Below the pieces are notes generated by a model. It worked only from the letters and a program-made list of their open reading frames with translations. It was not told the origin of the DNA and did no database searches. 64,000 nt of DNA, taken from Pedobacter cryoconitis (GTDB lineage: Bacteria; Bacteroidota; Bacteroidia; Sphingobacteriales; Sphingobacteriaceae). The DNA lies in NCBI RefSeq assembly GCF_014207135.1, contig NZ_JACHCC010000014.1, positions 124,001-188,000 of the forward strand. Reading direction: 5' to 3'. Shown one piece after another: positions 4,906-44,265 of the stretch (position 1 is the first letter of the stretch; every line of letters starts with the position of its first letter). Position numbers and translations under genes: made by a program.

Positions 4906-6078
4906 TCTGTTCCAGCGAATTTTATGGAAAAAAGAAGCGTTCTTATCATAGCTCATCCATACAAACAAAGCTTTACCCACTATATGATCTTCAGGAACCA
5001 GTCCCCAATAGCGCGAGTCTGACGACCGGTGACGGTTATCTCCCATCATCCAGTAATAGTTCATTTTAAAAGTATAACTATCAGCAGGTTTTCCATTAAT
5101 CAGCCAGCCATTTCCATTTTTCAAAAGGGTATTTCCTTCATATATACGGATAGCACGCTCATAAAGAGGCATAGAAACGCTATCCAACTTGACGGTCAGC
5201 CCCTTTTTAGGGACAATAAACGACCCCATATTATCCATATTCCATTTTCTGTTTGGATCATGCGGATAAATATCAAGGTCCTGAAGATCTTTCGGAGCAG
5301 CCATTTCATTGACTGATACGACAAAATCCAGTGCTTTTACCTTTTTCATCATCTCAGGAGAGCCAGTAAACTGGTAACTACTGTCAGAAACGGCGTGAAT
5401 ATCATCATTGATCACAAAACCAAGTTCCTCAAATACCGAAAAATTCACATCCTGAGTTTTGAATCTAACGATATAATCAGTCTGCCCCGCATTTTCAAGA
5501 GGTACAGCCTTATTGTTTACATAAACCAGCCCCTGCCTGATCGCCATTTCATCTCCACTTATAGCGATACAACGTTTAATAAAATTCTCCCGTTTATCTA
5601 CCGGACGGGAAGCTATCGTATATTGTGCATGTACTGCCGCCCTGCCCGAATGCCGCACCAGCTCATAATAATCAGCATCCTGATTTTCCATAGCAGTCGT
5701 ATCTCCCTGCGGATAATTAAAAACAACTACATCATTCCTTTGAATTCTCCCTAAACCAGGTAGCCTCCTGTATTTCCATTCAATCCCATCCCAATAAGCT
5801 TTTGTACCGATTATGGGCATCGTATGATGTGCAAAAGGGAAAGCTACCGGTGTCATCGGGATACGGGCCCCGTAATTGACTTTACTGACAAAAAGATAAT
5901 CTCCGATCAGTAACGATTTCTCCATTGAACCCGATGGGATTACATAAGCCTCAATAAAAAACATCCGGATGATTGTAGCTGCAATAACAGCAAAAATAAC
6001 CGCGTCTGTCCATTCACGCCTTTTAGATTTTTTCTGTACAGGAGTCCCATCCTGATTTTCCTTCTTTTTAAACCACAT
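4885..6078 (-). CDS. lepB: Signal peptidase I
   Basis: A 397-residue S26 signal peptidase. The ATG at 6078 (MWFKKKENQ) is chosen; a TTG two codons upstream would also be open. After a charged N-terminus there is one transmembrane segment (about 24-45). The catalytic Ser51 is in IPSGSM, the general-base Lys168 in [11 protein letters not shown], and box E reads [15 protein letters not shown] long insert lies between the Lys box and box E, as is usual in Bacteroidota. The enzyme cleaves Sec/Tat signal peptides at the periplasmic face of the inner membrane. It is divergent from lspA, so two signal peptidases sit side by side, and its 3' end lies within the shared terminator hairpin. Confidence 0.93.
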
Positions 6079-6240
6079 CTGCAAAATTTTAAAATTAGAT
6101 GATAACCCATATTTATTGTTACAGTATCACAAAATGCAATACCAGGAATTAAAAGACCTTTAAATTTGAGATTATAAACTAAAGCGGTTATGTTTATGGC
6201 CGAAATCACCTTTCAGATGAAAAGCGATAGATATAAACAG

Positions 6241-6735
6241 ATGAATCCAATTTTAAGAAACATAGCTATTATATTACTCGTGCTGGCAAATGCAGGTTGT
6301 GATCAGCTGACTAAAAATGTAGCCCGTCAAAATATCGCTTACCACGAAACGATCAATGTGATTGGCAATCATCTGATATTAACCAAAGTTGAAAATTCAG
6401 GGGCTTTCCTCAGCACAGGAGATTCACTCGGCGACTCTGTAAAGTTTATCGTATTATCTTTACTGCCCCTGCTCGCACTTTTTTATGGGATTTACTATTT
6501 ACTGAGAAATAACCAGTTGAATAACCTAATGGTCCTGGGCGTTTGTTTTGTAATCGGTGGCGGATTTGGAAACCTGTACGACCGCTTGCTTTACGGATCA
6601 GTTACAGATTTTCTCCATATAGATTTTTATATCTTAAAAACCGGTATCTTTAATCTGGCCGATGTATCTATTATGATCGGCATGATCATCCTGGTGATAC
6701 ACTTATACGTTAAACGTGCAATTCAGCTTACATGA
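6241..6735 (+). CDS. lspA: Lipoprotein signal peptidase (signal peptidase II)
   Basis: Starting at the ATG at 6241 gives a 164-residue protein, the normal LspA length; in-frame ATGs at 6190 and 6217 would add a polar extension. Four membrane segments are visible. The conserved boxes are CDQLTK near the N-terminus, ENSGAFLS, the GGGFGNLYDRLLYGSVTDF block and FNLADVSI. The two aspartates in VTDF and NLADV are the aspartyl-protease catalytic pair. LspA removes the signal peptide of prolipoproteins at the inner membrane, which fits the many lipoproteins in this window. Its stop overlaps the start of the cyclophilin gene (ATGA), which indicates translational coupling. Confidence 0.93.
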   Translation: MNPILRNIAIILLVLANAGCDQLTKNVARQNIAYHETINVIGNHLILTKVENSGAFLSTGDSLGDSVKFIVLSLLPLLALFYGIYYLLRNNQLNNLMVLGVCFVIGGGFGNLYDRLLYGSVTDFLHIDFYILKTGIFNLADVSIMIGMIILVIHLYVKRAIQLT

Positions 6736-8814: not shown

Positions 8815-9195
8815 TTAGTTGGACGCTTTAATTTCTTCCTCCATTCTCAGGCTTTCCTTATGAATCGCATTCATCATCTCTGTCACAAAAACAGCCGACA
8901 ATCCTTCTTTTTTACCCGATTCAATACTCTTCTCCAAAACCTGCTTAAAACGGTCCGCCTGTAATGGGGCAATATTATTTTTTGCCTTATAAACACCAAT
9001 TTCCCTGACAGCTCTTTCCCTTTCGCCAATCAGTTCCATCAATTTCTTATCCAGAGAATCGATTTTCTTCCTGTTGATCTGAAGTATATTCATCTTATCT
9101 TCTGGATTCCGGACACTTCCGGATTGCGCAAGAACAACCGTATGACTGAACAGACCTGCTAAAAATAAAAAAAGGATCCTGGTATATAATTTCAT
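8815..9195 (-). CDS. Exported chorismate-mutase-like protein (AroQ type)
   Basis: A 126-residue protein with a signal peptide (residues 1 to about 23, VLA-QSG) and an all-helical AroQ-type domain. Aligned by eye to the E. coli chorismate mutase domain, Arg42, Arg59, Lys70, Arg82 and Ser115 fall on substrate-binding positions Arg11, Arg28, Lys39, Arg51 and Ser84. Three positions differ: Gln79 for Asp48, Phe83 for Glu52 and Glu119 for Gln88. The last is the residue used by yeast mutase; the Phe is unusual and leaves activity uncertain. Periplasmic AroQ enzymes convert chorismate to prephenate outside the cytoplasm. The gene is monocistronic by spacing. A PheC-like lipoprotein gene lies about 30 kb away. 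Confidence 0.8.
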   Translation of the reverse strand: MKLYTRILFLFLAGLFSHTVVLAQSGSVRNPEDKMNILQINRKKIDSLDKKLMELIGERERAVREIGVYKAKNNIAPLQADRFKQVLEKSIESGKKEGLSAVFVTEMMNAIHKESLRMEEEIKASN

Positions 9196-35500: not shown

Positions 35501-35689
35501 GGTGCAGGCGCACTCAGTAATAAATCGATCGGAACAGCAGCTGTCGGAGGAATGCTCATTGGCACCGTATTCGGCATCTTTATCATCCCTGTACTATTCA
35601 TCATTTTCCAGGCTTTACATGAAAAAATATCTGGTTCACCACATCCGGCCAATGAACCATTACCTATTCCAGAAATCATTTATAATTAA
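32525..35689 (+). CDS. RND efflux pump (AcrB/HAE1 type)
   Basis: A 1054-residue inner-membrane drug/proton antiporter. The typical start (MLKKFIENPVLSTVISIII), two large periplasmic loops and twelve membrane helices are present. The proton-relay residues are seen in GIVVDDAIVVVEAVH (helix 4) and LLAKNAILIVEFA (helix 10). Length and order match AcrB. Substrates are probably hydrophobic compounds or dyes, as for HAE1 pumps; nothing more specific can be read. It is separated from the adaptor gene by nine bases and from the channel gene by four. Confidence 0.94.
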   Translation: MLKKFIENPVLSTVISIIIVILGLLGLSSLPISQYPEIAPPTVSVTAAYQGASSNVVLKSVIVPLEEQINGVENMTYMTSTASNNGSAKITIFFKQGTDPDQAAINVQNRVTKATSLLPEEVIKAGITTTKQLSSEAFSFLLYSNNPEYDQKFLDNYLRINIMPQLKRVNGVGGTEIYGNQEYAMRIWLKPDAMASQGLVPDDILAALKEQNIEAAPGKLGENSKQSVQYTLKYTGRLEETRQFEDIVLRSAKQGGLLRLKDVAQIEFGAQDYTTSLFTQGKVSSGGAISQTSGANARELIIACEKILKEASKDFPPGVEYHAFLNANDFLDASIEKVIYTLVEAFILVFIVVFIFLQDLRSTLIPAIAVPVAIIGTFFFLKLFGFTINLLTLFALVLAIGIVVDDAIVVVEAVHAKLDQGAKSAKKATLHAMSEISGAIISITLIMSAVFLPVTFITGSAGVFYKQFGLTLAVAIVISAINALTLSPALCAIFLKPHQADDHTVTTGFMPKFYAGFNAAFEAVTHKYIAGVRFLIRRKWISLAGIAVFAGIFYFLIRTTPTGFVPNEDSGAIFGDIILPPASTLARTEEIIGQVDSIARSIPEIELSSRLAGMDLINGFGGSYGAIFIRLKPWKERKGKNQDANSIVGQLFAKTSHIKGANVIFFAAPTLQGFGNNNGFELQLQDKTGGSLKDFDHNISKFMAALQQRPEILYAATPFNIGFPELEVNVNIARCKDAGVNVKTVLNTLQGYFGGLYASDFNKFGKQYRVMMQSGPDFRGKEADMNKVFVRTAQGVMAPITEFVTLRKTYGPEFINRFNLYTSTTVTGTPNKGFSSGDAIKAINEVAEQTLGRGYTHEFSGLTREELSSGSQTTLIFALCLVFIYFLLSAQYKSYILPFAVLLSLPVGLAGAFIFAYLFGVDNNIFLQISLIMLIGLLAKNAILIVEFALIHRISGRSITQSAIFGAKARLRPILMTSFAFIFGLVPLMLATGAGALSNKSIGTAAVGGMLIGTVFGIFIIPVLFIIFQALHEKISGSPHPANEPLPIPEIIYN

Positions 35690-35693
35690 GAAG

Positions 35694-37088
35694 ATGAAAA
35701 CAAAATATCATCAGCTCCTGATTCCAGTACTCCTTGTCTCAGGATTATGGAGCTCGTGTAAGATTACAAAACCTTATGCCAAACCTGTTGTTCAAATCCC
35801 GGGACATTACCGCGATACAACAATTACCGATACCACCAATATAGCTGCACTTAAATGGTCAGAGTTGTTCACCGATACTGTATTACACCAGCTGATTAAC
35901 CAGGGTCTACAGGCTAACCTCGATCTTAAGATTGCTATTGAGCGGATCAACGAAGCTAAGGCTAACTTAAAACTGAGCAAAGCCGCATTTTTACCAGAGG
36001 TCAGTACCAATCTTTCTGTCAAACAATCCAAATTATCATTTCCTCAGGGATTTGGACTGGTTAACTCTTCTACGCAATATGAATTGGGGATTTCTACCGC
36101 CTGGGAACTTGATGTATGGGGTAAACTCAGCAGTGCAAAACGTGCTTCAATAGCCGGTTTATTAGCTTCGGATGCCGCTAAAAGAGCAGTACAGACACAA
36201 CTGATAGCCAATATCGCTAATTATTACTACGAACTCCTGGCACTCGATCAGCAAATGGTCGTCACACAGAAAACAGCTTTAAACCGGCAGGCAGAAGCAA
36301 ATACAATTAAAAATCTTTTTGAAAGCTCTGTACAGAACGGGGTGGCTGTTGTACAAAGTGAAGCCAGTTTCTATGAAGCAGACCTGGCCATTCCTGACAT
36401 TACACAAAAAATCAGAGAAACGGAGCATGCCCTGAGCATTTTACTGGCCCGTTCACCCGGAAAAATTGAAAGAACATCGCTGGAACAGCAAAAGATGAAC
36501 TATGATTTAAAACCTGGAATTCCGGCTCAGCTGCTCGCCAACAGACCCGATGTACAACAGGCTGAATATACTTTCAGAGAGACCTTTGAACAGGTGAATG
36601 TAGCCAGAACTTATTTCTACCCCGCACTAACAATAAGCGGAGCAGGAGGCTTTTCAAGTTTTGGCTTGAAACAGTGGTTTAACAGTGTCGGACTATTTGC
36701 AAACATCGCGGGAGGTTTAAGCCAGCCTCTTTTAAATAAAGGGATGAACCAGGCCAGATTAACAACTGCACAGGCCAGACAGAAACAGGCGCTTTATAAT
36801 TTCGAATTATCCTTATTAAAGGCAAGTCAGGAGGTATCAGATGCTTTATCTGCTTATCAGACGGCAGCCCAGAAAGAAGATAAAAGGAAGAAACAACTCA
36901 CTGCATTGACAAAAGCCGTATCCTTCAATAAAGAGTTACTGAACTACAGTAAAAACACGAATTATACAGATGTACTGACTGCCGAACAGAACCTGCTGAC
37001 AGCAGAATTAAAAGGGATCAGTGATCAAAGTCAGAAACTTCATGCTGTGGTTAATCTATACCGTGCCTTAGGTGGTGGATGGAATTAA
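35694..37088 (+). CDS. TolC-family outer-membrane efflux lipoprotein
   Basis: A 464-residue NodT/OprM-type channel. The ATG at 35694 follows the pump stop by four bases and puts a lipoprotein signal (LWSSC, Cys22) at the N-terminus; earlier starts would overlap the pump gene. Two long repeats of paired helices and strands are visible, each with the OEP pattern (LKIAIERINEAKANLKLSKAAFLPEV; VNVARTYFYPALTISG). It completes the tripartite pump. The last gene of the operon, it is followed directly by a large composite palindrome. Confidence 0.92.
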   Translation: MKTKYHQLLIPVLLVSGLWSSCKITKPYAKPVVQIPGHYRDTTITDTTNIAALKWSELFTDTVLHQLINQGLQANLDLKIAIERINEAKANLKLSKAAFLPEVSTNLSVKQSKLSFPQGFGLVNSSTQYELGISTAWELDVWGKLSSAKRASIAGLLASDAAKRAVQTQLIANIANYYYELLALDQQMVVTQKTALNRQAEANTIKNLFESSVQNGVAVVQSEASFYEADLAIPDITQKIRETEHALSILLARSPGKIERTSLEQQKMNYDLKPGIPAQLLANRPDVQQAEYTFRETFEQVNVARTYFYPALTISGAGGFSSFGLKQWFNSVGLFANIAGGLSQPLLNKGMNQARLTTAQARQKQALYNFELSLLKASQEVSDALSAYQTAAQKEDKRKKQLTALTKAVSFNKELLNYSKNTNYTDVLTAEQNLLTAELKGISDQSQKLHAVVNLYRALGGGWN

Positions 37089-37798: not shown

Positions 37799-39388
37799 AT
37801 GAAGACTACTCAGAAACATCCTACTTTTGTGTATTTAAAGCAAAGTACAAAGCTACTTTTTGTTTCCCTGCTGCTCACAGGAAACATCAGTTATGCACAG
37901 ACAAAAACACAGGTCATAGACAATATTGTCAAAGAGGCTAACGAAAATTCTCAACTGGAGAACCTTGCCCATGAACTCATGGACGTAGTTGGTCCCAGGC
38001 TCGTAGGTTCGCCTCAGATGAAACAGGCCAATGACTGGGCTGTAGCTAAATACGCCAGCTGGGGAATCACTGCTAAAAATGAAAAATGGGGCGAATGGCG
38101 CGGATGGGAACGCGGGATCTCTCATATTGATATGGTTTATCCCCGGGTAAAATCCCTGGAGGGTATGCAATTAGCCTGGAGCCCTGGAACTAAAGGAAAA
38201 TCGGTAGTCGGTGAAGTGATTATTTTCCCTGATCTGGCCGATTCCATAGCCTTTAGTCGCTGGCTTCCCAACGTGAAAGGTAAGTTTGTGCTATTATCGA
38301 TGAACCAGCCTACAGGTCGTCCGGATTATAACTGGCAGGAATTTGCAACCCCCGAATCTTTCGAAAAGATGAAGAACAGCAGAACTGAACAAACCACTGC
38401 CTGGCGTTCCAGAATGAGCAAAACAGGTATGAAACCAAAAGCCATTGCCCTTGCCTTAGAAAATGCCGGTGCTTTGGGTATCGTAACCAGCAACTGGTCA
38501 GCAGGATTTGGCGTTAATAAAATCTTTGGGGCAAATACCACTAAGGTCCCTTCTATAGATATCTCTCTGGAAGATTATGGACTATTGTACAGACTACAGG
38601 AAACAGGAAACAAACCAAAGATCAGTGTCCATACCGAATCTAAGGAATTAGGTTTAGTGCCTACATTTAACACGATCGCAGAGATTAAAGGAACAGAGAA
38701 ACCTGATGAATACGTCATCTTATCTGCTCATTTTGATTCCTGGGATGGTGGAACAGGCGCTACTGATAACGGAACAGGCACAATCACCATGATGGAGGCT
38801 GCAAGGATTCTGAAAAAGATGTATCCAAATCCTAAAAGAACTATTCTGATCGGACACTGGGGAAGTGAAGAACAGGGTTTAAACGGATCGAGGGCATTCG
38901 TCGAAGATCATCCTGAAATTGTCAAAAATATACAGGTTGTATTTAATCAGGATAATGGTACAGGAAGAGTCGTTAATCTTTCAGGACAGGGTTTTCTGAA
39001 TTCCTACGATTATCTGGGTCGCTGGTTAGCTAAAGTGCCGGAAAACATCAGAAAACAAATCACAACTAATTTCCCAGGTGCTCCGGGAGGCGGAGGTTCG
39101 GACTTTGCATCCTTTGTCGCAGCTGGTGCACCGGCATTCTCTTTAAGTTCCAACAGCTGGTCTTATGGCAGCTATACCTGGCATACCAACAGGGATACTT
39201 ATGACAAGATTGTATTTGATGACGTTCGTAATAATGCTACACTGACAGCGATCCTGGCTTATATGGCCAGTGAAGATGCAGACAAAACATCAGCTGCGAA
39301 AATTGTATTGCCTTCCAATCCAAAAACTGATGAGCCAGGAAAATGGCCTCCGGTTGTAAAACCAACACGCAAAGGCGGTGTAAACTAA
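37799..39388 (+). CDS. M28-family metallopeptidase, exported
   Basis: A 529-residue aminopeptidase-like protein with a signal peptide ending about residue 34 (SYA-QTKT), a PA-type insert (about 130-300) and an M28 zinc domain. The metal ligands can be read in order: His in LSAHFDSW, bridging Asp in GATDNGTG, Glu pair in WGSEEQGL, Asp in FNQDNGTG and His in YTWHTNRD. Such proteins remove N-terminal amino acids outside the cytoplasm. The PheC-like gene starts three bases after its stop, so the two genes are co-transcribed. Confidence 0.93.
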   Translation: MKTTQKHPTFVYLKQSTKLLFVSLLLTGNISYAQTKTQVIDNIVKEANENSQLENLAHELMDVVGPRLVGSPQMKQANDWAVAKYASWGITAKNEKWGEWRGWERGISHIDMVYPRVKSLEGMQLAWSPGTKGKSVVGEVIIFPDLADSIAFSRWLPNVKGKFVLLSMNQPTGRPDYNWQEFATPESFEKMKNSRTEQTTAWRSRMSKTGMKPKAIALALENAGALGIVTSNWSAGFGVNKIFGANTTKVPSIDISLEDYGLLYRLQETGNKPKISVHTESKELGLVPTFNTIAEIKGTEKPDEYVILSAHFDSWDGGTGATDNGTGTITMMEAARILKKMYPNPKRTILIGHWGSEEQGLNGSRAFVEDHPEIVKNIQVVFNQDNGTGRVVNLSGQGFLNSYDYLGRWLAKVPENIRKQITTNFPGAPGGGGSDFASFVAAGAPAFSLSSNSWSYGSYTWHTNRDTYDKIVFDDVRNNATLTAILAYMASEDADKTSAAKIVLPSNPKTDEPGKWPPVVKPTRKGGVN

Positions 39389-39391
39389 TTT

Positions 39392-40102
39392 ATGAAACCA
39401 ATCACCCGTTATTTACTCTTCTGTTTACTGTTGCTGGCTACTGCCTGCAACAGTAAACTGACACCAGCTGGCCAGATCCTGATAGGTACTACCGGTGACT
39501 ATCCTCCACTAACTAGCTTTGACACAGCCAGTAAACAATTTATTGGGGAGGATATCGAACTGGCTTTACGTTTAGGCAGACATCTGGGCAAACGGGTAGT
39601 TTTTGTAAAAACAACATGGAAGGATCTCAACGCAGATCTCCTGGCTAAAAAATTTGATCTGGCTATAGGTGGAATTTCCATCAATGCAGCCAGGCAAAAA
39701 TCATTCATTTTCTCTGCTCCTCTGCTGATGGACCGTAAAGTAGCCATTTTTCGTAAACAGGAACAAAGCAAATTCGTAAATTTTCAGGCGATTGATCAGG
39801 CAGGTATCAGGATTATTGAAAATATCGGCGGCACTAACGAGCAATTCGCCAGAAAGCATATTCATCAGGCAACATTAAACGTTATTCCCGATAACCAGCA
39901 GGTTTTCATCACCTTACTGAACAGTGGTGCCGACGTCATGTTCACGGATGAAACCGAGGCTAAATATCAACAGCAGAAACATCCGGAACTGTCATGGATC
40001 AGGCTGGACGAAAACACGAGTCCCCCTTATGCTAAAGCTATTATGTTTAATCAGGCTGACACACTACTTCGGCGACAAGTAAATAGCTGGTTAAAAAAAT
40101 AG
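39392..40102 (+). CDS. PheC-like lipoprotein: cyclohexadienyl dehydratase or solute-binding protein
   Basis: A 236-residue periplasmic-binding-fold protein (SBP family 3) with a lipoprotein-type signal (LLATAC, Cys19). It follows the sequence pattern of Pseudomonas PheC along its length: IGTTGDYPPLT, WKDLNADL, FDLAIGGISIN, IDQAGIRIIENIGGTNEQFAR, VIPDNQQVF, MFTDETEAKYQ and KHPEL. The Glu in TDETEA (residue 189), which I recall as the PheC catalytic acid, is kept. PheC converts prephenate or arogenate to phenylpyruvate or phenylalanine outside the cytoplasm. An ordinary amino-acid-binding role is the alternative, but no permease or ATPase gene is adjacent. It is co-transcribed with the M28 peptidase. 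Confidence 0.72.
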   Translation: MKPITRYLLFCLLLLATACNSKLTPAGQILIGTTGDYPPLTSFDTASKQFIGEDIELALRLGRHLGKRVVFVKTTWKDLNADLLAKKFDLAIGGISINAARQKSFIFSAPLLMDRKVAIFRKQEQSKFVNFQAIDQAGIRIIENIGGTNEQFARKHIHQATLNVIPDNQQVFITLLNSGADVMFTDETEAKYQQQKHPELSWIRLDENTSPPYAKAIMFNQADTLLRRQVNSWLKK

Positions 40103-40156: not shown

Positions 40157-40615
40157 ATGAAAACTTCCATCCTGATAGGTATGACCCTTGCTTCGGCAGC
40201 GTTATACAGTTGCAGTCAGAATAACGGCGCGACCAATAAACAACCAGAAAAACCTATATCTACAACCTGCTATATGGCTATTGACGGAAAAGACACGGCC
40301 AGAATGGAACTGAATCAGTTCAGTAAAAATATGGGCGGAAACCTGGTCATCAATTTTGCTAAGAAAGACAATAACAACGGGACAATAGAAGGTAAATTCA
40401 AAGGTGATACACTATATGTTGATTACATTTTTAAAGTCGGAAAAGATAAACAGGCCCATATGAACCCGCTTGCCTTCCTGAAAAAAGACGGCAAATTAAT
40501 TATGGGAGTCGGTAAAATGGAAAGTACATTAGGAAGAACCTATTTTAGAAAAGATGTGCCTATAGACTTTGTACAGGGCAGGTTTACATTTATACCAGTG
40601 CCTTGTAAAAAATAG
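40157..40615 (+). CDS. Hypothetical lipoprotein, first of a tandem pair
   Basis: A 152-residue lipoprotein (signal LYSC, Cys19) with a short polar linker and a small beta-rich domain: CYMAIDGKDTARMELNQFSK, GTIEGKFKGDTLYVDYIFKVG, PLAFLKKDGKLIMG. The pattern of charge and strands recalls lipocalin-like or NlpE-like small lipoproteins, but I do not recognise the family. The next gene encodes a clear paralog, and about 45 bases of upstream DNA are also shared, so the unit arose by tandem duplication. Function unknown; likely envelope-located. Confidence 0.75.
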   Translation: MKTSILIGMTLASAALYSCSQNNGATNKQPEKPISTTCYMAIDGKDTARMELNQFSKNMGGNLVINFAKKDNNNGTIEGKFKGDTLYVDYIFKVGKDKQAHMNPLAFLKKDGKLIMGVGKMESTLGRTYFRKDVPIDFVQGRFTFIPVPCKK

Positions 40616-40667: not shown

Positions 40668-41120
40668 ATGATCAAAACTTCTATATTGGTGTATATAACC
40701 CTTGCTTCAGTGATGTTATATATTTGCACACAGGATAACGGCGCAGCCGGGAAAGAACCAGAGAAACCTCTGTCTACAACCCACTATATGGCAATCGACA
40801 GAAAGGATACGGCCAGAATGGAGCTGAATCAGTTCAGTAAAAAGGTTGAAGGGAAACTGATAATTACCTATCATAAGAAAGCCAATAACAGAGGTGAAAT
40901 TAAGGGTAAATTCAAAGGTGACACCCTATTTGTCAATTATGTTTTTAAAGTCGGCAAGAATAAACCAACGTACAAGAATCCACTGGCTTTTTTGAGAAAA
41001 GATGGTAAACTAACGATTGGAATCGGCAAAATGGAAAATACCATAGGCAGGACCTATTTCAAAAAAGATATCCCTATAGACTTTGAGCAGGGCAGATTTA
41101 CTTTTATACCAGTACCCTAA
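40668..41120 (+). CDS. Hypothetical lipoprotein, second of a tandem pair
   Basis: A 150-residue paralog of the preceding gene, with roughly two thirds of positions identical by eye, the same domain pattern (HYMAIDRKDTARMELNQFSK, GKFKGDTLFVNYVFKVG, FIPVP end). The lipobox differs (LYIC, Cys20), so processing could be weaker. Each copy has its own leader containing a shared TGGAATTG...TTAA...CATC...AAAACAG pattern just before the ATG. A strong bidirectional terminator starts within its last codons. Confidence 0.75.
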   Translation: MIKTSILVYITLASVMLYICTQDNGAAGKEPEKPLSTTHYMAIDRKDTARMELNQFSKKVEGKLIITYHKKANNRGEIKGKFKGDTLFVNYVFKVGKNKPTYKNPLAFLRKDGKLTIGIGKMENTIGRTYFKKDIPIDFEQGRFTFIPVP

Positions 41121-42501: not shown

Positions 42502-44265
42502 TTAGCTTAACCTTTTCCCATGCATTAAACGGTCGACAGCTTCTTTAAAAGAACCTGCACGTGTGACTTCTCCCGAATTAATGAAGAATATCTCATCTGC
42601 GTTTTCAATCGTATTTAACCGGTGGGCAATAATGACCAATGTGGTTTCCTTTGGTAAATTATCCAGAATCTGTCCAAGCAGCTGCTCTGTGATCGTGTCA
42701 ATATTGGCCGTAGCCTCATCCAGAATCAGCAACTCAGGCTTACGTAATACTGCCCGCATAAAAGCAATAAGCTGTTTCTGACCAATACTCAGGCTTTCCC
42801 CTCCTGATAAAACAGGTGTTTCCAGTCCCTGGTCAAAAGTAGTCAGTAAACCTTCGAGTTTAGCTTCTTTTAATACTTGTAAAAACTGCTCATTGCTGAA
42901 CTGATGATAGCTGTTATTACTATACAGAATATTTTCCTTAACTGTACCCGTAAACAGAAATGGCTCCTGCAGGATAAATCCGATTTTCTCAGCTCTCTCC
43001 TGCGGGCTATAAGTACGAATATCCTTTCCATTAAGTAAGATTATTCCTTGTAAAGGATCATACAGCCTGGCCATAATAGAAGCCGTTGTCGTTTTTCCTC
43101 CTCCGGTGGGTCCGACCAGCGCATAAGTTTTACCTTTTTCCATAGTAAAACTGATATTATGCAATATCTCATAACCACCCGGATAACCGAAATGTACATT
43201 TCTGAATTCCATGACCGCATGACCGGGGTCCTGCGTATCATCATAGGAAATCGTTACCAGATTGTTGTTAAGCGATAAGATCTGCGAAATCCTGTCCCAT
43301 CCTGCCAATGCAACCTGAAAACTGGTCCAAAGGGCTGCCAGCTGACGCAGCGGGTTGTAAAAGTTTGTCGCATAAGAAAGATAACTCACCAGTAAACCTA
43401 TGGTAAAATTCCCTTGCGTAATCAGGTAAATACCAAAAGACAACACCGTTAACTGTGCTATAGAAGAAAGGAAACCAAATACTGGCAGGAATATATTATT
43501 TGCCAGTCCGGCACCAATGGCTGTCCCGTAATTCTGCCGGTTTGCAATGTCAAATCTCTTCCTGAAATAATCCCTTCTGTTAAAGGCTATAATAACCTTA
43601 AAGTTATTCAGGCTTTCCTGAATCTCAGCACTCATGGAACCAGTACTTTTTAAGTTCAGTGCGTTCTTTTTCTTAATCCAGGGAGAAACGAGCTTCGTAA
43701 AGAAAAAGATAAATACAGCGGGTATCAGTGTGGCCAGTCCAAGTTCAATATTAATAACCAGTAAAAAAATACCAGCACCGGTCATGATCACGATATTACT
43801 GATAAACTGCATCAGCGCCTGAGAAAAAAACTGGTTCAATTTATCGGTATCATTGTTTACTCTCGAAATCAGGTCACCTGCCTTATTCTCATTAAAAAAG
43901 GCAAGCGGAAGTTGCTGGATCTTATTAAAAATAGCATTCCGCAACTCAAAAATAATACGCTGCCCTAAACCACCCATCAATTTGGTCTGGAAATAGCTGC
44001 TCACAAAAGCGATGACATACATCGATAATAAAATGCCTGAAAAGACCAGTACACCATGATATTGTTTGGTCAGTATATATTTGTCAATCGTGTGACCAAT
44101 TAAAAATGGGCCTAATAAATTCAGTGAAGCATTCAGCAAAACCGCTGAAAGCGCGATATAAAGTGTTTTCCGCTCCTGTTCAACGAGCTTCAACAGACTC
44201 TTTACTCCTGACCAGGTAGAGCTTTTTGCTTCTGTGCCAGGCAGGCTGTTAAGATTATAATTCAT
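42502..44265 (-). CDS. ABC exporter half-transporter, subunit with catalytic Walker B
   Basis: A 587-residue fused membrane/ATPase protein: six membrane helices (about 40-340) and an ABC domain (about 350-580). Walker A is GPTGGGKTT, Walker B ends LLILDEAT with the catalytic Glu, and the switch is IIAHRL. Its signature is LSIGQ, in place of LSGGQ. The upstream partner (44255-45994) has the complementary defects, so the two form a heterodimer with one working and one degenerate ATP site, as in TM287/288 or LmrCD. The genes overlap by 11 bases. Substrate unknown; drugs or lipids are likely for the class. Confidence 0.9.
   Translation of the reverse strand: MNYNLNSLPGTEAKSSTWSGVKSLLKLVEQERKTLYIALSAVLLNASLNLLGPFLIGHTIDKYILTKQYHGVLVFSGILLSMYVIAFVSSYFQTKLMGGLGQRIIFELRNAIFNKIQQLPLAFFNENKAGDLISRVNNDTDKLNQFFSQALMQFISNIVIMTGAGIFLLVINIELGLATLIPAVFIFFFTKLVSPWIKKKNALNLKSTGSMSAEIQESLNNFKVIIAFNRRDYFRKRFDIANRQNYGTAIGAGLANNIFLPVFGFLSSIAQLTVLSFGIYLITQGNFTIGLLVSYLSYATNFYNPLRQLAALWTSFQVALAGWDRISQILSLNNNLVTISYDDTQDPGHAVMEFRNVHFGYPGGYEILHNISFTMEKGKTYALVGPTGGGKTTTASIMARLYDPLQGIILLNGKDIRTYSPQERAEKIGFILQEPFLFTGTVKENILYSNNSYHQFSNEQFLQVLKEAKLEGLLTTFDQGLETPVLSGGESLSIGQKQLIAFMRAVLRKPELLILDEATANIDTITEQLLGQILDNLPKETTLVIIAHRLNTIENADEIFFINSGEVTRAGSFKEAVDRLMHGKRLS

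Follow-up and report, generated by a model that had tools for sequence, protein, structure and literature searches.

In Pseudomonas aeruginosa, the cyclohexadienyl dehydratase (CDT) PheC and an exported chorismate mutase (CM) form what has been called a 'hidden overflow pathway', the role of which is disputed (PMC10520331). In that paper the export of CM and CDT is described as an enigma, and its authors argue against a biosynthetic role and for the sensing of chorismate of lysed cells; CM-CDT fusions are reported there from nine species, and nine active-site residues of the P. aeruginosa enzyme (PaCDT) are listed. According to PMC7683729, PaCDT is a trimer, its Gln177 is tied to the productive rotamer of Glu173, and the activity of AncCDT-3 is low. 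The string 'Bacteroid' is absent from the main text of PMC10520331, and no title or abstract among the matches listed from the open-licence PMC literature dealt with an exported CM/CDT pair of Bacteroidota.

We analysed a stretch of 64,000 nucleotides of the Pedobacter cryoconitis genome (the window), in which one ORF is, judged by its sequence, a real gene encoding a CDT; this assignment is well supported, and both host and form are unusual. The features of the locus are collected in Table 1. The reading that we prefer, with a probability of roughly two in three, is that of an exported, lipid-anchored CDT which would act with a separate exported AroQ on extracytoplasmic shikimate metabolites and not in housekeeping phenylalanine synthesis. 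Family, active-site residues, export signals, co-occurrence and cytoplasmic redundancy form its sequence basis, from which we infer catalysis, cooperation with AroQ and purpose.

Table 1. Features of the window discussed in the text
Feature	Position	Strand	Remarks
Exported AroQ (chorismate mutase, CM_2), proposed PheC partner	8815..9195	-	CM_2 1.3e-18; not of the gamma subclass
M28 family peptidase	37799..39388	+	3 bases upstream of pheC; adjoins pheC in 6 of 11 Pedobacter carriers, including the window
pheC-like gene, predicted lipid-anchored CDT	39392..40102	+	236 aa; ATG start
Signal peptide with lipobox-like LATAC	39392..39448	+	Predicted lipidated Cys19; PS51257-like pattern
TDETEA motif	39944..39961	+	Glu189 = PaCDT Glu173 (catalytic-acid equivalent); Thr185 = PaCDT Thr169
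Small protein, no Pfam family	40157..40615	+	Lipoprotein-like start (by eye); after pheC in the six genomes with the linked M28 peptidase

Among solved structures, AncCDT-5 (1.8e-47) and AncCDT-3 (1e-43) were the closest to the window PheC, followed by two CDT-CM fusion structures (6.6e-42 and 1.3e-41) and PaCDT (7.4e-41). After the CDTs the match fell to the non-catalytic ancestor AncCDT-1 (1.9e-30); SAR11_1068 (5kkw), deposited as a CDT, matched at 5.2e-19 and extant amino-acid-binding proteins at 4e-16 or weaker. In Pfam the protein matched SBP_bac_3 (3.7e-21) and one further family below the cut-off, and 11 NCBIfam families were matched with none above its cut-off, no CDT model being reached. 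Family databases alone would thus label it a transporter substrate-binding protein (SBP).

The residues of the active site were compared in a 49-row alignment in PaCDT numbering, which included seven SBP rows. All nine PaCDT active-site residues were present in the window PheC and in its 10 Pedobacter orthologues. Two copies from another genus, as well as every row representing a fusion or a known CDT, also had the complete set; the SBP rows retained 0-2 of the nine and the row Niveispirillum_H51 three. The glutamate of the TDxxEA motif pointed out in the original prediction is residue 189 (bases 39956-39958) and aligned with Glu173 as proposed. The window PheC and PaCDT were identical at 78 of 210 aligned positions. 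Across the 11 Pedobacter copies, which share 59-69% identity, 54 of these 210 positions were invariant and included all nine of the active site, a conservation that exceeds chance (hypergeometric 2.9e-6). Gln177 was likewise found in all 11.

The fold, the nine residues, Gln177, the predicted export and the single domain are shared with PaCDT (PDB 3KBR, 5HPQ), from which the Pedobacter proteins differ by their Bacteroidota host, by a predicted lipid anchor and by the lack of Cys106 and Cys185 and of the C-terminal tail. The two cysteines, which form the PaCDT disulfide, were missing from 11/11 copies, as they are from AncCDT-3; like the trimeric state of PaCDT, this disulfide is an accessory trait and does not define a CDT. 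The tail was missing or mostly cut, the copy of genome G299 adding about a dozen dissimilar residues. A frameshift at the A-run near position 40095 was considered as the source of the short C-terminus and was rejected, because 10 of the 11 copies stop within about five residues of one place.

The tree of PheC was rooted with the seven SBPs as outgroup, and the method gave a long-branch warning. The CDT side formed a clade of 41 rows (support 100/99), and the 11 Pedobacter rows fell inside a 38-row part of it that leaves AncCDT-3 outside (99/89). Clustering with amino-acid-binding proteins, the outcome that the original prediction had set against its CDT assignment, was rejected: forcing the Pedobacter rows together with the SBPs cost 24.4 log units (p-AU 0.0008). 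With CDT structures ranking first, nine of nine active-site residues and this position in the tree, the proposed PheC identity was supported. Niveispirillum_H51, with its three residues, also lies on the CDT side, outside the 38-row part, so that membership of the clade alone is no proof of catalysis. An AlphaFold model of the window PheC made from 18 sequences had a mean pLDDT of 90.6; Foldseek ranks 1-12 were all CDTs or CM-CDT fusions, and in VIA-align AncCDT-5 (Z 28.2) and PaCDT (27.1) came on top. AncCDT-1, a binding protein, scored among the CDTs (26.4), with ArgBP next (25.1), and the fold alone therefore cannot decide the function.

The SBP family 3 proteins HisJ, ArgT, ArtJ and GlnH share the fold and the Pfam family with PheC, but they carry 0-2 of the nine CDT residues and form a clade apart, and the E. 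coli members adjoin permease genes. For the polar amino-acid permease TIGR01726 no match in the window genome exceeded the cut-off of 42.2; there were two weak ones of 30.2 and 21.3 bits, the former lying between a MetN-like ABC ATPase and a MetQ-like lipoprotein in a MetNIQ-like cluster. An ordinary amino-acid-binding protein was rejected on the basis of the tree, the active-site residues and the lack of such a permease over the cut-off. It is also improbable that PheC has no catalytic function and acts as a binding or sensor lipoprotein, derived from a CDT or from an amino-acid-binding protein, with phenylpyruvate, phenylalanine or another compound as ligand: the retention of nine active-site residues in 11/11 copies at 59-69% identity and the lack of a polar amino-acid permease over the cut-off weigh against this, even though the SBP fold, the loss of disulfide and tail, the existence of a CDT-side row without most of the active-site residues and the preference of PMC10520331 for sensing roles of CDT enzymes would all suit it.

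The N-termini of the copies were inspected with a PS51257-like lipobox pattern. Every one of the 11 Pedobacter copies has it before the mature domain, and neither of the two from the other genus does; a lipid anchor is accordingly predicted for the Pedobacter copies. The residues after the lipobox cysteine were SP in nine of the 11 copies, NS in the window and RA in genome G212.

The order M28 peptidase - pheC - small protein was found in six genomes. In the window, the small proteins at 40157-40615 and 40668-41120 are similar to each other and stand in tandem, both with lipoprotein- or signal-like starts and without a Pfam family. In four of the other five Pedobacter carriers, an Asp/Glu racemase ends 0-1 base 5' of pheC (L047:4106-4795, L046:5667-6356, L048:5468-6157 and L041:3877-4596; one of the four was family-scanned). 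No uptake transporter was recognised by eye directly beside the 11 Pedobacter copies, few of whose neighbours were family-scanned. The claim that no transport genes lie beside pheC holds for uptake systems at the window copy; an outer-membrane efflux channel (35502-37088) and an ABC exporter, recognised by sequence reading (42502-44265), lie 2.3-2.4 kb away. In the other genus, an ORF for an ABC-type ATPase is located about 460 bases upstream of the copy in G116, and G014 is without one. The window genome also encodes a second SBP family 3 protein (L001:1489-2172, C10), with relatives in other Pedobacter genomes; it has no visible signal peptide and is therefore apparently cytoplasmic.

Orthologues of pheC (E 1.5e-93 or better) were detected in 11 of 145 Pedobacter genomes, and the other 37 matching genomes gave weak matches alone (6.4e-10 or weaker). 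Named carriers are P. cryoconitis, P. caeni, P. steynii and the strains KBW06 and PAMC26386. In a sample of 201 genomes of the family, strong matches (7.2e-33 or better) were restricted to the window genome, G014 and G116, the latter two from a genus other than Pedobacter, and three more matches were weak. In 395 genomes of the phylum only the window genome and G014 matched strongly, with six further matches between 3.8e-13 and 5.6e-11, in keeping with the expectation that such a gene would be unusual in Bacteroidota. Genomes G211 and G210 have lost pheC by excision, with the M28 peptidase on one side of the gap and the small protein on the other (L117:3041-3225 and L118:3041-3215). The last 23 codons of pheC remain in G211 and flanking non-coding DNA alone in G210; since each genome retains a stretch lost in the other, the two deletions are non-nested and independent. 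Both genomes have kept aroQ.

The window genome carries a cytoplasmic prephenate dehydratase, PheA, beside a fusion of DAHP synthase and chorismate mutase, and an ORF read as EPSP synthase is also adjacent to PheA. The other 12 pheC carriers have a prephenate dehydratase too, and replacement of an absent cytoplasmic PheA by PheC was rejected on this ground (13/13). The original prediction had envisaged a phenylalanine route like that of Pseudomonas. An overflow route of this kind, feeding phenylalanine to the cell, has a precedent in the equal pair of activities discussed for P. aeruginosa in PMC10520331; however, with PheA in every carrier, pheC confined to 11 of the 145 Pedobacter genomes and its loss on two occasions with aroQ kept, the biosynthetic claim was not supported and we regard it as very unlikely.

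The proposed partner of PheC has a signal-like start ending in VLAQ (by eye), and its ORF aligned with the E. coli CM without gaps (2.6e-7). It matched 18 NCBIfam families, none above its cut-off; against the AroQ gamma model TIGR01806 it scored 24.7 bits, below the cut-off of 74.15. Residues corresponding to R11, R28, K39, R51 and S84 of the E. coli CM are retained in the exported AroQ, and positions 48, 52 and 88 are Q, F and E in 11/11 rows. Gln48 and an aromatic residue at 52 are common to this protein and the DAHP synthase-CM of the window genome. In a tree of chorismate mutases, which is short and weak with nine of 18 inner branches open, the gamma-type enzymes stood apart from the rest. 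A short, signal-less PchB-like homologue of chorismate mutase was also noticed in several Pedobacter genomes (L116:4191-4499; L081:1447-1764), in G254 between ORFs resembling trpE and trpG.

Strong relatives of this AroQ in Pedobacter were collected as short ORFs, with E no weaker than 4.6e-27 and frames shorter than 170 aa. Such ORFs were present in 29 of the 145 Pedobacter genomes, with stops within the match in two of these, and in the family sample relatives (E 1.9e-29 or better) occurred in 21 of 201 genomes, one with a stop. Yet all 13 distinct pheC carriers, 11 of Pedobacter and two of the other genus, possess an AroQ with a signal-like start (by reading), as the original prediction of a pair would lead one to expect. 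The probabilities of this by random draw are 3.4e-9 and 1.0e-3 for genomes that are related, so that the counts are not independent and are inflated by kinship. We judge the carriers to represent two or three lineages, and the association of AroQ with PheC is therefore suggestive but unproven. No pheC without AroQ was seen among these 13 carriers from the 145 Pedobacter and 201 family genomes, and pheC is absent from 18 of the 29 Pedobacter genomes that have an exported AroQ; together with the losses in G211 and G210, this indicates that AroQ persists without PheC, the reverse not being seen.

The same figures could be taken to mean that PheC is an active exported CDT working alone on prephenate or arogenate of other origin, the link with AroQ being a by-product of kinship. 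The distance of about 30 kb between the two genes in the window, the AroQ-bearing genomes without pheC, the two deletions that spared aroQ and the few lineages of carriers are consistent with such a situation. It is nevertheless unlikely in our view, as AroQ accompanies PheC in all carriers of two genera against 29/145 and 21/201 genomes overall, the two chemistries are consecutive, and both activities are fused in Proteobacteria according to PMC10520331. On the sequences at hand, cooperation of PheC with AroQ is likely.

In the preferred reading of a cooperating exported pair, PheC would be exported and held at a membrane by its lipid anchor. Chorismate that has leaked or been freed by lysed cells would be converted to prephenate by the exported AroQ outside the cytoplasm, where PheC would then turn prephenate into phenylpyruvate, or arogenate into phenylalanine. 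The pair may serve to scavenge, remove or sense shikimate metabolites outside the cytoplasm. AroQ and PheC would thereby correspond, as two separate genes, to the exported CM-CDT fusions of Proteobacteria, and the two exported activities of the hidden overflow pathway are both predicted in all 13 carriers.

The CM-CDT and CDT-CM fusions of Proteobacteria (PDB 8CQ3, 8CQ4, 8CQ6; PMC10520331) resemble the Pedobacter pair in that two predicted activities are exported, a cytoplasmic alternative is retained and the arrangement is rare, but in Pedobacter there are two separate ORFs, a non-gamma mutase and a lipid-anchored CDT. With AroQ gamma mutases of the MtCM type the exported AroQ shares chorismate mutase and export signal; it differs in falling below the TIGR01806 cut-off and in having Gln48 and an aromatic residue at 52 as in the Bacteroidota DAHP synthase-CM. 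The pair thus belongs with neither the fusions nor the AroQ gamma systems, although it would presumably work like the known systems. The predicted extracellular shikimate branch would extend to another bacterial phylum, and the two-gene version with its non-gamma mutase, the natural losses of pheC with aroQ kept and the culturable Pedobacter hosts offer natural and genetic contrasts for testing the enigma of export.

A more speculative idea, which we put forward tentatively and hold to be rather doubtful, is that the Sphingobacteriaceae built their own extracytoplasmic route from chorismate to phenylpyruvate, from a home-grown non-gamma AroQ provided with a signal peptide and a CDT acquired from Proteobacteria, possibly as the CDT half of a CM-CDT fusion, to which a lipid anchor was added in Pedobacter. 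If true, convergence would have produced a third arrangement in addition to the CM-CDT and CDT-CM orders, and extracellular chorismate conversion itself would be under selection, for example for sensing or using lysed neighbours. A first tree, which included wrong-strand control rows, placed the Pedobacter CDTs in one clade with fusions (98/97). For the corrected tree, the wrong-strand controls L007, L069 and L071 as well as Leisingera_H24 and L070 were dropped and five rows were added; here only the other genus (G014, G116) joined the fusions of metagenome-assembled genomes (94/96), and the Pedobacter CDTs were a branch among the CDTs, their placement there being without resolution. The proteobacterial rows are skewed to fusions because the search for relatives was seeded with Pedobacter peptides.

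That search returned five Pedobacter loci and 11 loci of uncultured Proteobacteria. In the ten of these that were read (L058-L066 and L068, at about 5000-6730 of each), the CDT domain is preceded by a long extension at the N-terminus. CM_2 was found in all four extension loci scanned, three above the cut-off and L060 with 26.1 against 27, and for two extension loci the alignment with 8CQ3, the fusion of A. fuscus, ran over both domains. The ten loci look like exported CM-CDT fusions with the CM at the N-terminus, in addition to the nine species already reported. A PheC whose tree distance to the P. aeruginosa CDT is zero was also met in a phage record flagged UNVERIFIED (L141; OQ572407.1, Pseudomonas phage Y5), where it is probably host DNA in the assembly.
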